Shown here: positions 52,980-57,921 of the stretch, in pieces
How positions within the stretch are numbered: the stretch's first letter is position 1
Layout of the letters: each line of letters opens with the position of its first letter
Source: Commensalibacter oyaizuii
Lineage (GTDB): Bacteria > Pseudomonadota > Alphaproteobacteria > Acetobacterales > Acetobacteraceae
DNA: 64,000 nucleotides
Reading direction: 5' to 3'
NCBI RefSeq assembly: GCF_029953265.1
Contig: NZ_JASBAO010000001.1
Span: forward strand, 1,054,001-1,118,000
The notes under the pieces: model-generated
Databases searched by the model: none
Told to the model about the DNA's origin: nothing
Seen by the model: only the letters and a program-made list of their open reading frames with translations
Position numbers and translations under genes: made by a program

Positions 52980-53012
52980 AAAAAAACCTCTATCTTTTTT
53001 AAGATAGAGGTT
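52980..53012 (-). terminator. Strong intrinsic terminator of nrdA
   Basis: On the minus strand AACCTCTATCTT and AAGATAGAGGTT form a perfect 12-bp stem with an AAAA loop, 30 bases after the nrdA stop. The stem ends directly in a run of seven Ts (plus-strand As at 52980-52986, partly paired). This is the clearest rho-independent terminator in the window. Confidence 0.88.
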
Positions 53013-53042
53013 ATATTGGCATTTAAATCTAGTTAATTAGTT

Positions 53043-54953
53043 TTACTGACAGGCAAGGCACTCTTCGTAGTTACTGCTTCCATTAGAAGAGTTTTCACCG
53101 GGCAATAGAACCTCTTCTTTTATGGCTAACTTACTGACATCATCCGCACGTTGCAGCGATAAAGAACGACAGTAATACAACGATTTAACACCTTTTTTCC
53201 AAGCTTGATAATGAATCTGATGCAAATCGCGTTTATGGACATTTGCTGGAACAAAAATATTAACAGATTGCGACTGACAAATAAACGCTGCACGATCGGC
53301 CGCATGTTCAATAACCCAGCGTTGATCCAATTCAAATGCCGTTTTGAACACATCTTTTTCATCTTGTGTTAAAAAATCTAGATGCTGAACACTGCCTTTA
53401 TTTAAAGTAATAGAAGACCATACAGCATCTGTATCTTGTCCCTTTTCTTCAAGTAAGCGTTTCAAATGACGATTTCGAACTGTAAAAGATCCCGATAATG
53501 TTTTTTGTAAAAATACATTTGCAGTAATCGGTTCAATTCCAGGGCTGGCATTCCCAGCAATGATCGAAATTGATGCGGTGGGTGCAATAGCCATTTTATT
53601 AGAAAACCGTTCATGAACGCCATAATCTTGCGCATCTGGACATGCCCCGCGCTCATCTGCCAACATTACGGATGCTTTATCAGCCTGTTGACGAATATGT
53701 TTGAACATTTTCTTGTTCCAAACTTTTGCCATTACGCTTTCAAATGGAATTTTATTAGCCTGTAAAAACGAATGGAATCCCATGACCCCCATTCCGACAG
53801 AACGCTCGCGCGCAGCAGCATAACGTGCACGTTCCATTTCATCGGGGGCATTGTCAATAAAATCCTGCAATACATTATCTAAGAACAGCATAACATCTGG
53901 AATAAACTGTGGATTTTCATTCCATTGATCCCAGTATTCCAAGTTAAGGGAAGATAAACAACATACGGCTGTTCTTTCTTTCCCTTTATGATCAATACCT
54001 GTTGGTAATGTAATTTCGGCACATAAATTCGATGTTTTGACCTCTAGCCCTGCCAATTTATGATGTTCTGGCCGCGCATTATTAACCGTATCAGAATATA
54101 TAATATATGGTTCGCCTTGTTCAATACGGGTTGTTAATAAACGTATCCATAGGGAACGTGCTGAAACTTTACGAATAATAGATTGATCTTTGGGGGAAAG
54201 CAGAGCCCATTCTTCGTTTTTTTCAACTGCGCGCATAAAAGCATCCGACACTAAAACACCATGATGCAAGTTTAATGCCTTTCGGTTAGGATCCCCCCCT
54301 GTCGGTCTACGTAATTCGATAAATTCCTCAATTTCTGGATGCCAAACTGGCAGATAAACTGCTGCTGATCCACGGCGTAATGACCCTTGGCTAATAGCCA
54401 ATGTCAAACTGTCCATAACGCGGATAAAAGGAATCACCCCCGAAGTTTTACCATTACGTTTAACATTTTCACCAATAGAGCGAAGATTACCCCAATAAGA
54501 GCCAATTCCACCACCACGAGAAGCCAACCATACATTTTCATTCCACAACTCGACAATACCTTTTAGGCTGTCTTCTGCTTCGTTTAAAAAACATGAAATT
54601 GGTAAGCCTCGTGCTGTGCCCCCATTTGACAAAACAGGCGTTGCAGGCATGAACCAATGCTGAGACATATAATCATACAAACGTTGTGCATGTCCTGCAT
54701 CACTGCCATAATAAGAGGCAACACGTGCGAATAAGTCCTGATAAGATTCGCCTTCCATCAGATAACGGTCGTCTAATGTTGCTTTACCAAAAGGCGTTAA
54801 CAGATCATCACGAGAATGCTTTAACTCTACCTGATAACGCCCGTATAACTGGATGTCCCCAGCCAATGCATCGGTAAAATTGAACATCGGTTGTTCAACT
54901 TTATTTCTGACTGTCGTAGAGGGCTTTTTTTCAAGTACATCAACAGGACTCAC
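53043..54953 (-). CDS. nrdA: Ribonucleoside-diphosphate reductase subunit alpha, no ATP-cone
   Basis: NrdA is the catalytic subunit that reduces ribonucleotides. The 636-residue protein has the redox cysteine C121 (PISCF), the active-site set N309, C311 and E313 (SNLCAEI), the second redox cysteine C331 (CCLSSLNL) and the C-terminal thiol pair CLACQ. TASISIIAGNASPGIEP is also typical. E. coli NrdA has about 760 residues with an N-terminal ATP-cone (activity site); here the sequence enters the catalytic part at about residue 24, so that cone is missing. Overall dATP inhibition is therefore unlikely. It is convergent with nrdB and has NrdR-like boxes upstream. Confidence 0.93.
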   Translation of the reverse strand: MSPVDVLEKKPSTTVRNKVEQPMFNFTDALAGDIQLYGRYQVELKHSRDDLLTPFGKATLDDRYLMEGESYQDLFARVASYYGSDAGHAQRLYDYMSQHWFMPATPVLSNGGTARGLPISCFLNEAEDSLKGIVELWNENVWLASRGGGIGSYWGNLRSIGENVKRNGKTSGVIPFIRVMDSLTLAISQGSLRRGSAAVYLPVWHPEIEEFIELRRPTGGDPNRKALNLHHGVLVSDAFMRAVEKNEEWALLSPKDQSIIRKVSARSLWIRLLTTRIEQGEPYIIYSDTVNNARPEHHKLAGLEVKTSNLCAEITLPTGIDHKGKERTAVCCLSSLNLEYWDQWNENPQFIPDVMLFLDNVLQDFIDNAPDEMERARYAAARERSVGMGVMGFHSFLQANKIPFESVMAKVWNKKMFKHIRQQADKASVMLADERGACPDAQDYGVHERFSNKMAIAPTASISIIAGNASPGIEPITANVFLQKTLSGSFTVRNRHLKRLLEEKGQDTDAVWSSITLNKGSVQHLDFLTQDEKDVFKTAFELDQRWVIEHAADRAAFICQSQSVNIFVPANVHKRDLHQIHYQAWKKGVKSLYYCRSLSLQRADDVSKLAIKEEVLLPGENSSNGSSNYEECLACQ

Positions 54954-55043
54954 GTCTCATATCCTCGCAAAACAAAATTAGGGGGTTTAAGGGATTTTAC
55001 ATCCCCAAATATACACCATCAATTTTAAACAAAAAATATTATT

Positions 55044-55090
55044 TCTCTATATATAGTATATATAAGATTATAAATATCTATATGATGATA
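55044..55090 (-). promoter_or_regulatory. Candidate NrdR box pair upstream of nrdA
   Basis: The 16-base site at 55044-55059 (TCTCTATATATAGTAT) matches 13 of 16 positions of the NrdR consensus as I recall it. A weaker half-site at 55075-55090 starts 31 bases away (TATCTATATGATGATA, 8 of 16). Paired boxes 31-32 bases apart are the known NrdR arrangement. They lie 91-137 bases before the nrdA ATG. The first site is good and the second is poor. Confidence 0.45.
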
Positions 55091-55112
55091 CAAAATCAAC
55101 ATAACAATAATC

Positions 55113-55290
55113 TTGACAGGAAATTATTTTATCCCTGTACAATTAGGACACATAAATTTGATTATAACGGTTAACATCGTTTTTATAACGAATTAAAAAG
55201 ATCGTTATTTAGAGCACATTTTCTCAAATGTGCGTATTTAATGTAATGAATTCGCTTACATCAAATCAATCATAATGCTGGTAAACAAAA
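55113..55290 (+). other. Gene-free stretch with promoter-like sequence and three stem-loops (possible small RNA)
   Basis: This is part of the 418-base gap upstream of nrdA. The plus strand has TTGACA at 55113-55118 and TACAAT at 55138-55143 (19-base spacer). There is no open frame after it, but three perfect inverted repeats follow: ATAACGA/TCGTTAT at 55185-55208, GCACATTT/AAATGTGC at 55214-55233 and ATGTAA/TTACAT at 55241-55261. A structured transcript is possible. No U-tract terminator was found, and the spacer is longer than ideal. Confidence 0.3.
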
Positions 55291-55371
55291 GCACTAGAAT
55301 TATCTACCTATAACGGTCAGATACTACGTGATTATCATAAAATATCCCGTAATCTCGTAATGAATTTAGAA

Positions 55372-55818
55372 CTACTGTTTTATATACTTTGATAACAGCA
55401 TCTCTAGCTGTTCAAAAGAAAATCTGATTTCTGGGCAATCTTTTTCAGCATAAATAAAAGATAAAATTACCAAACTAAAATCGAAATCAAAGCCTAGTTG
55501 GGTTAGGTTAAAAACTATTTTAGAATGCGTTTTTTCATAAAAATTATGAATGATCGCTTTGGCCATCTTTTTAGATAGATAATCTTTACATAAAAGATAA
55601 GATAATGTTTTTTTATCCTCCCACAAGATCACAATATTCTGCTTTCTTAATGTCTGTTCTATTGCCTCTATAGCAATATTCCAAAAGATCACCTGTTGTG
55701 AATGCGCTATATTATGAAGAATTATATGTATTCCATCCGAATCTGTCGGGTCACCAATCCATTCGGCTTGCCAATTCTTGTAATATGTGGGGGATAGAAC
55801 ATTACCTGTTTTATGCAT
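55372..55818 (-). CDS. Orphan hypothetical protein, AT-rich
   Basis: I do not recognise this 148-residue protein. It starts at the ATG at 55818 (MHKTGNVLSPTYYKNW) or a GTG two codons earlier; AGAAG lies about 10 bases upstream. It has no signal peptide, and mixed helix and strand look likely. Segments such as WIGDPTDSDGIHIILHNIAHSQQVIFW, summarised by GDPTDSDGIHIIL, and VFNLTQLGFDFDFSLVILSFIYAE look like folded protein rather than chance. It stands alone in a sparse, very AT-rich region next to a broken gene, which suggests an accessory or acquired locus. Confidence 0.55.
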   Translation of the reverse strand: MHKTGNVLSPTYYKNWQAEWIGDPTDSDGIHIILHNIAHSQQVIFWNIAIEAIEQTLRKQNIVILWEDKKTLSYLLCKDYLSKKMAKAIIHNFYEKTHSKIVFNLTQLGFDFDFSLVILSFIYAEKDCPEIRFSFEQLEMLLSKYIKQ

Positions 55819-56047
55819 AAGCACGTTTCTTCTATATATAAACGAATAACTTTTAACAAAACCTCGTCTTATCGTTATTTAAGGGAATTTTTTATCTTTT
55901 CATAAATATTTTTAAAATTTCAAGCTTAGCCATTTGGGCTATTCCAATAAATTTAATAACGATTAAATTGCGTTAAATGCCAATAAAGTAAATATACTTC
56001 CCTCTTAAATAAAATATTGTAAAATCATAAACTTAAATAATAATATA

Positions 56048-56265
56048 ATGAGGAAATATTTATTGCCTATCTCTGACCACAAGCTTGTAAATTTTAGTAA
56101 AGATTACGAACTCAACTATATCCTGAGAAAGTTTAAACTACCCTAACCCATTGGAAACAGAAAAAATTAGTGAAATATGGAAAAAAGGCAGAAGTAAAAC
56201 TAAATAAAAAAACACTTATTCATGATAAATTGCATAGTTATCTAATAGAAAACAAAATATTCTAA
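56048..56265 (+). pseudogene. Frameshifted DUF3606-like small gene
   Basis: From the ATG at 56048 the plus strand encodes 32 residues ending in a stop, including VNFSKDYELNYILRKFKL. Reading on in the -1 frame from about 56143 gives LTHWKQKKLVKYGKKAEV and ends at a stop at 56263-56265. Joined, the two parts follow the DUF3606 pattern (N-x-x-x-DYE-x-x-Y-x-x-x-KF, then a helix with KKxGxxAxxV). So this looks like one gene of about 70 codons broken by a single frameshift. A sequencing error or programmed frameshift is an alternative. No clear ribosome binding site precedes the ATG. Confidence 0.55.
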
Positions 56266-56269
56266 GATT

Positions 56270-56307
56270 TACTAAACTTCAGAAACATATTTATAGGAAG
56301 TTTAGTA
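56270..56307. terminator. 11-bp inverted repeat after the DUF3606 remnant and guaA
   Basis: TACTAAACTTC and GAAGTTTAGTA pair perfectly over 11 bp around a 16-base loop. The repeat starts 4 bases after the broken gene's stop and lies 36 bases after the guaA stop on the other strand. It may serve as a terminator for guaA or for the remnant. There is no long U-tract on either side. Confidence 0.45.
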
Positions 56308-56343
56308 TATGTAATACACTTCCCATAAATATTGATTATGATT

Positions 56344-57921
56344 TCATTCCCACTCGATGGTTCCAGGGGGTTTTGATGTTATGTCGTAGGTTACGCGATT
56401 AACGCCCCGCACCTCGTTAACAATACGCCCTGCAACCCGCGTTAAAAAAGCCATATCAAATGGATAAACATCGGCCGTCATTCCATCAACGCTAGTTACG
56501 GCTCGTAATGCACACGCATGGTCATATGTGCGACCGTCCCCCATAACACCCACCGTTCGTACAGGTAGCAAAACCGCAAAGGCCTGCCAAATAGCATCGT
56601 AAAGGCCTGCACTGCGTATTTCCTCTAAATAAATCGAGTCAATCTTACGTAATAAATCCAGTTTATCACGGGTAATATCACTTAGAATACGAATGGCAAG
56701 CCCTGGCCCTGGAAAGGGATGACGGCCTACAATATTTTCAGGGATACCAAGCTCTCGCCCCAAATCGCGCACTTCGTCTTTGAACAAATCACGCAGCGGC
56801 TCTACCAACTGCATATTCATTCTTTCTGGTAATCCACCCACATTATGATGGGATTTAATCGTTACAGAAGCCCCAGTAACACTGACGCTTTCAATAACGT
56901 CTGGATATAATGTTCCTTGTGCCAAGAAATCTGCACCACCTAATTTTTTGGCTTCTTCTTCAAACACTTCAACAAATAAACGACCAATCGTTTTCCGTTT
57001 TTTTTCAGGGTCGGTTACCCCTTCCAACTCTTTTAAAAATAAATCAGAAGCATCACGTTTAATCAAGGGAATATTAAATCGTCCTGTAAACGTTTTAACG
57101 ACCTCATCCACCTCGCCTTGACGCAACATGCCATGATCAACAAAGATACACGTTAATTGATCGCCTATGGCTTGATGAATTAAAACCGCAGCAACTGCAG
57201 AATCAACCCCACCCGATAGTCCACAAATAACTTTTTTATCGCCGACTTGTTGACGAATCCGCTCTATTTCTAAATCACGGAACCCTGCCATTGTCCAATT
57301 GCCGTGACAACCCACAATATTATGGGTAAAATTCTTTAATAATGCTGAACCATGTGGGGTATGGACAACCTCTGGATGAAATTGAACACCATATAAACGA
57401 CGTCCTTCATCTGCAATCATAGCATATGGAGCCCCTTCACTGGTTCCGATAACTTTGAACCCTGGCGGTAATTTTACGACACGATCACCGTGGCTCATCC
57501 AAACCTGTTCGCGACTGCCTCGGGCCCAAATCCCACGACAAAGAGCGCTATCTTCTACCACCTCGACATGCGCACGGCCGAATTCTCGGTGATCACTGCC
57601 CTCCACTTGACCACCCAATTGATGACACATCGCTTGTTCACCATAACAAATCCCAAGCACGGGTATATTTAATGCAAAAACCTCATCAGGGATACGGGGG
57701 GCATTTTCATCTGTAACACTTGATGGTCCACCAGAAAGAATAATCCCTTTGGGTGCAAAAGAACGAATCTTCTCATCTTTACTGGTATATGGCCATATTT
57801 CACAATAAACGCCACTTTCCCTAACGCGTCTGGCGATTAATTGTGTTACCTGGCTACCAAAATCAAGAATCAGAATCTTTTCTTCATGCAAAGATTGTTC
57901 AAGGTTACTTACTTGGGTCAT
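56344..57921 (-). CDS. guaA: GMP synthase (glutamine-hydrolysing)
   Basis: GuaA converts XMP to GMP with glutamine as nitrogen donor. The 525-residue protein has the class I glutaminase domain with the nucleophile C92 in GICYGEQAM and the His-Glu pair in QFHPEVVHT, then the ATP-pyrophosphatase domain with the P-loop [12 protein letters not shown], and the dimerisation domain ending PPGTIEWE. All catalytic residues are present. It is a single gene, divergent from a small lipoprotein gene, with the remnant region downstream. Confidence 0.97.

Follow-up and report, generated by a model that had tools for sequence, protein, structure and literature searches.

DUF3606 (PF12244) and several plasmid proteins annotated only as hypothetical are the described sequences that come closest to the locus reported here. 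Like the family treated below, DUF3606 comprises short lone genes with a similar 24-residue motif, but the family gave no significant Pfam match and its C-terminal part is unmatched. According to an excerpt of PMC6823313, the DUF3606 ORF of a P2-like phage is a lone ORF between non-coding DNA. The plasmid 'hypothetical proteins' WP_223582814.1, WP_114271281.1 and WP_164925943.1 (Shewanella oneidensis MR-1) belong to the same family as our locus, are full length and have the same start motif. The plasmid members, of about 69 amino acids, are intact, whereas the reading of the copy described here is interrupted by a stop in frame and by a change of frame. We consider it highly probable (about 0.9) that this copy, found in a 64,000-nucleotide stretch of Commensalibacter oyaizuii DNA (the window, to which coordinates refer unless stated otherwise), is a decayed pseudogene that belongs to a protein family without a name, whose members have about 69 residues.

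Two-frame coding in the guaA flank

A 519-base gap between a 150-aa frame (55372-55824, minus strand) and a 525-aa frame, which we take to be guaA (the name given in the preliminary description), carries two peptides on the plus strand. In the frame of 56048 the peptide ...VNFSKDYELNYILRKFKLP is closed by the first TAA listed in Table 1, and in the -1 frame the peptide ...KKLVKYGKKAEVKLNKK... runs to the second. Stops at 56134 and 56263 bound the -1 frame, and the frame overlap permitted by stops is 56134-56146 only.

Table 1. Positions of the features of the decayed gene and its surroundings in the window
Feature	Position	Strand	Basis or remark
GAGGA, Shine-Dalgarno-like (putative)	56050..56054	+	8 bases before TTG 56063; read from the sequence
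Decayed gene, codons 1-33, read in the frame of 56048	56063..56161	+	Profile and frame scoring; start TTG aligns with residue 1 of the family
TAA stop in frame at codon 28 of the family, presumed first lesion	56144..56146	+	
Run of six A, best-scoring net -1 frame change, presumed second lesion	56161..56166	+	67.9 bits
Codons 36 to end of the decayed gene, -1 frame	56167..56265	+	Stop TAA 56263-56265
AT-rich inverted repeat between convergent genes, terminator-like	56267..56310	.	Self-match on the opposite strand (query 443-486); role presumed
guaA (presumed), convergent neighbour	56344..57921	-	525 aa

The whole genome was searched with the profile of 27 intact relatives (the A3 alignment). 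Two matches were obtained at E<=10, both at 56048-56265: one at 56066-56218 with stops read through (E 3.2e-11), and one at 56137-56256 in the -1 frame (E 0.013). No intact second copy of the family was found in this genome with the same profile and threshold. Within the window, the N part (profile positions 1-25) ranked first of 127,852 positions with 61.5 bits, where the next best had -15.3, and the C part (positions 36-66) ranked first of 127,816 with 21.2 bits against -9.9. In 400 random gaps of similar composition, the C part never scored as much as 16.4 bits. Since both halves match the profile of the relatives, the earlier claim that the gap encodes one protein in two frames is confirmed, with a predicted product of about 69 residues split over 56048-56265. 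The proposed length of about 70 codons agrees with the single open frame of 67 to 73 codons in the relatives.

The N-terminal half of the family, SDHxYVNFSxDxELNYxLxK, is recognised in the window copy by the stronger profile match, and the C-terminal half, NRxxL...G...K...TH.EF..Y, by the -1 frame match, although neither K26 nor K44 is retained. Interrupted by a stop and a change of frame, the window copy lacks the one open frame, and we therefore regard it as a pseudogene of the family and no working member.

To locate the frame change, every family position was scored in each of the two frames against a position matrix built on 22 non-redundant rows, with a stop penalty of -4 bits that we chose. 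The highest-scoring place to leave the original frame for the -1 frame was after position 33-35, at the run of six A. The advantage of this place is due to the highly conserved N32 and R33, whose codons follow the TAA at codon 28 but keep to the original frame; the frame change is thus placed after this TAA, and the two look like separate lesions. In the pairwise DNA alignments with two congeners, the gap lay at the A-run with one (G002) and near 56132 with the other (G008).

The preliminary description had joined the frames near 56143, and a single frame change in 56134-56146, of which the TAA would be merely a consequence, is the simplest account since it needs one lesion. Residues T29 and H30 agree with the family when read in the -1 frame, and the G008 gap lies close by. 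However, a switch at position 25, the site of that join, scored 58.6 bits against 67.9 at the A-run, the -1 frame of 56137-56163 scored no better than chance and does not contain N32 and R33, and the overlap permitted by stops is confined to 56134-56146. We hold a single frame change there to be unlikely. A frame change at the A-run, as predicted from the frame scores, fits better than one near 56143.

Relatives of the gene and the resemblance to DUF3606

The intact copy that the preliminary description had proposed to look for in sister strains was found beside guaA in the congener G002. Like the window copy, this 79-codon open frame belongs to the family and adjoins the 3' end of guaA in convergent orientation. 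Unlike the window copy it is intact, and its other neighbour is a frame that we presume to be aldo/keto reductase-like, in place of the 150-aa gene. As in the window, an inverted repeat, terminator-like for convergent genes, separates the small gene of G002 from guaA (L060 after 1710), but the two repeats differ in sequence. When nine genomes of the genus were searched by tblastn with the G002 protein, intact relatives with 49% identity were found in G006 (E 2.4e-16) and G008 (E 1.7e-16), and the N part of the window copy itself was matched with E 0.004. A match in G005 (E 0.35) was weak and was disregarded.

Outside the genus the family is widely scattered. In the wider taxonomic family a match was present in 4 of 397 genomes, all of this genus, and among Alphaproteobacteria, where the protein is rare, in 3 of 385 genomes, again all of this genus, with Thalassospira in addition. 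A scan of species genomes gave eight loci, seven of them outside the genus (Onishia, Kosakonia, Gamma proteobacterium IMCC1989, Erwinia, Pantoea, Thalassospira and Serratia). Two plasmid searches gave overlapping sets of 24 and 23 records, which include three records (two of Proteus, one of Fusobacterium) that are as large as chromosomes but filed under plasmids. A family member was also found on one viral contig, and searches of phages gave one weak match (E 0.2) with one query and none with the second. We collected 28 relatives in all; the A3 alignment has 27, with the Commensalibacter melissae copy entered once. None of the 28 has an internal stop and each is one open frame. The consensus is MxxSDHEYVNFSEDxELNYHLxKVxKxQSxxNRxxLRxMGxELKxxLxKxxLTHxEFHxYIxxxLxRL.

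The gene had initially been described as DUF3606-like, and on that reading it would be a diverged member of that family. An hhalign comparison of A3 with 12 DUF3606 sequences aligned 24 columns with a probability of 18.5% and E 0.0013 (a single comparison), over a motif of the type [VI]N-x-x-E-D-Y-E-L, and DUF3606 genes too can be lone ORFs. But the assignment did not hold in the profile search proposed for the two fragments. The N fragment scored 11.9 bits against a gathering cut-off of 24.3 and covered positions 8-30 of the 54-column profile, and the second fragment matched DUF1583_N weakly, with 14.1 bits against a cut-off of 22.9. PF12244 gave no match in the whole genome at E<=10, and only 1 of the 27 intact relatives matched DUF3606 at E<=1 (E 0.18). 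The alignment ends after its 24 columns, which leaves most of the DUF3606 profile unmatched and the C-terminal third with no counterpart. At E<=10 a control search for DUF3606 gave hits in 10 of the 14 known genomes, and results at this level therefore mean little. Of 299 genomes of the taxonomic family, 22 had a DUF3606 match at E<=0.01 and 11 had one over the cut-off, with none in the genus among the matches listed. We regard membership in DUF3606 as unlikely. The resemblance that was noticed by eye is a true one in the 24-column motif.

The family has no curated name and stands outside the protein-family libraries tried (Pfam, NCBIfam, PHROGs and PADLOC). No Pfam family was common to more than 2 of the 27 members, and at E<=0.1 any one family of NCBIfam, PHROGs or PADLOC was matched by at most two, three and two members, respectively (best E 0.0078, 0.0072 and 0.0028). 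PBECR3 (E 0.0017), UMP1, DUF885, DUF16, Cas9 (PADLOC, E 0.0028) and XOL-1 were each matched by one or two of the 27, which we ascribe to chance. One plasmid member (KJ631730.1 6729-6950; L073:2395-2616) is labelled 'ParE' in its record, a name that found no support, as no relative matched a ParE family in Pfam or NCBIfam. A pseudogene as such is ordinary, and the unnamed family is a mild surprise: a broken gene spotted by eye served as a pointer to a scattered family of small proteins.

The AlphaFold2 model has three helices (pLDDT 85.4, pTM 0.67). A search of the PDB by sequence gave a best E of 0.067, and a search by fold gave seven matches with a best E of 6.2, so that no solved fold in the PDB fits. 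The only notable structural match was A0A8S5TM79, a 73-aa phage protein of Caudovirales sp. ctBpc6, with a TM-score of 0.72 over 64 columns. At E 0.0092 and 26% identity it is a possible structural relative, a relation that is unproven. Its listed name, IMP-specific 5'-nucleotidase, is unlikely for a protein of 73 residues.

Probable decay and origin

The start codon is likely to be TTG 56063 rather than ATG 56048, as suggested by the alignment to the family and by the position of the GAGGA motif, which ATG 56048 overlaps. Translation from this TTG would meet the premature TAA after 27 codons. At the strictly conserved sites of the C part (26, 33, 44 and 54) the window copy breaks two of four (26 and 44), whereas intact members break at most one in leave-one-out comparison. 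At the 90% level it breaks four, one of them solely through the early stop, and the worst intact member breaks three. These counts suggest, not strongly, a relaxed constraint on the window copy.

Of the three explanations first offered, a fresh pseudogene, a sequencing error or frameshifting, we retain the pseudogene, with two lesions in place of one event; the other two are not favoured. A second lesion at the TAA favours a pseudogene in decay over a single slip in sequencing and over programmed frameshifting. We infer the loss of function, the exact place of the frame change and the order of the two lesions. An intact gene misread in sequencing or assembly would fit the run of six A, a kind of spot prone to length errors, and we saw one assembly of the species. 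But an indel error does not create the TAA if the two-lesion reading is right, and two conserved residues of the C part are changed too, so that we regard such an error as improbable. Programmed frameshifting to a full-length protein would be consistent with two halves that are still recognisable, but it is most improbable, as all 28 relatives are read in one frame with no conserved frameshift, TTTAAAC at 56132-56138 is out of phase for a -1 slip by our reading, and under the two-lesion reading readthrough of the stop would be needed as well.

A decayed pseudogene may have arisen as follows. A small lone gene of the kind that moves from bacteria to bacteria (on plasmids, mainly of Gammaproteobacteria) would have reached the genus, probably by horizontal transfer, and would have come to lie convergent with guaA. 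Its inactivation in this species would then be due to the TAA after 27 codons and to a -1 change in the run of six A, which put the C-terminal half of the gene in another frame. The window copy shares 22 to 23 of 56 residues with the congeners and up to 27 of 56 with plasmid members. Because it is no closer to the congeners than to the plasmid members, a single common arrival, or descent from the copy of the congeners, is not established.

The guaA end in the window contains the core GAGTGGGA, which is reported in an excerpt of PMC7775301, and a 14-mer of this end has no second copy in the window. The DNA of the 519-base gap matched 19 of 40 genomes at E<=1, with only short AT-rich matches off its own locus (best E 1.3e-4), which were uninformative.

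The stretch downstream of guaA (L052-L059 and window 53000-56343), up to a gene that we presume to be ribonucleotide-reductase-like, varies among the nine congeners. G001 has a KAP family NTPase there (Pfam E 3.2e-47), G007 an HNH-like frame recognised by eye, G004 and G005 other frames, and G003, G006 and G008 little. The 150-aa frame at 55372-55824 had no Pfam match, and its only relative among the nine genomes is in G004 (52% identity), also beside guaA. The stretch looks like a cargo spot.

Gene setting and possible function

We fetched 22 plasmid regions, 20 of them annotated. A same-strand annotated gene within 300 bp was seen in none of the 20, a count in which the upstream DNA of two regions (L082, L086) and the gene table are incomplete. 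Four chromosomal copies (L065, L068, L070 and G002) have a same-strand frame within 200 bp upstream. Toxin-antitoxin pairs are listed nearby in 10 of the 20 annotated plasmid regions (L077-L079, L086, L089, L093-L097), some of which are near-identical plasmids. We do not assign the gene to such a pair, as no pair is common to the plasmid regions. A regulated promoter was considered but not upheld: the 100 bases upstream were more conserved than the gene in one of five informative pairs and less conserved in four. In the pair L075/L079 they were 78% identical against 65% for the gene.

The intact protein may be a small soluble three-helix protein with its own promoter and a nucleic acid or protein as binding partner, serving mobile elements as a regulator or as an accessory factor. 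We put this forward tentatively, at somewhat less than even odds, because the protein is lone, soluble, small and helical and is carried on mobile elements. More speculative is the idea that the family, undescribed and made of small lone genes carried by tiny mobilizable plasmids, by large conjugative ones and in rare cases by chromosomes, is a host-directed or plasmid-maintenance factor with its own regulated promoter. On this view, the dead copy would be what is left of an element that had at some time come into the guaA flank. If the family does serve plasmid upkeep or host control, small lone genes on resistance-free and resistance plasmids would be easy to test.

The 87 bases before the gene on an Enterobacter plasmid (L077:2923-3009) are 82% identical to the leader of an unrelated 'protein L' on an E. 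coli plasmid (L098:1501-1587). A shared promoter or operator at these two leaders is possible from the alignment. The match to this leader came from 1 of 5426 genomes.
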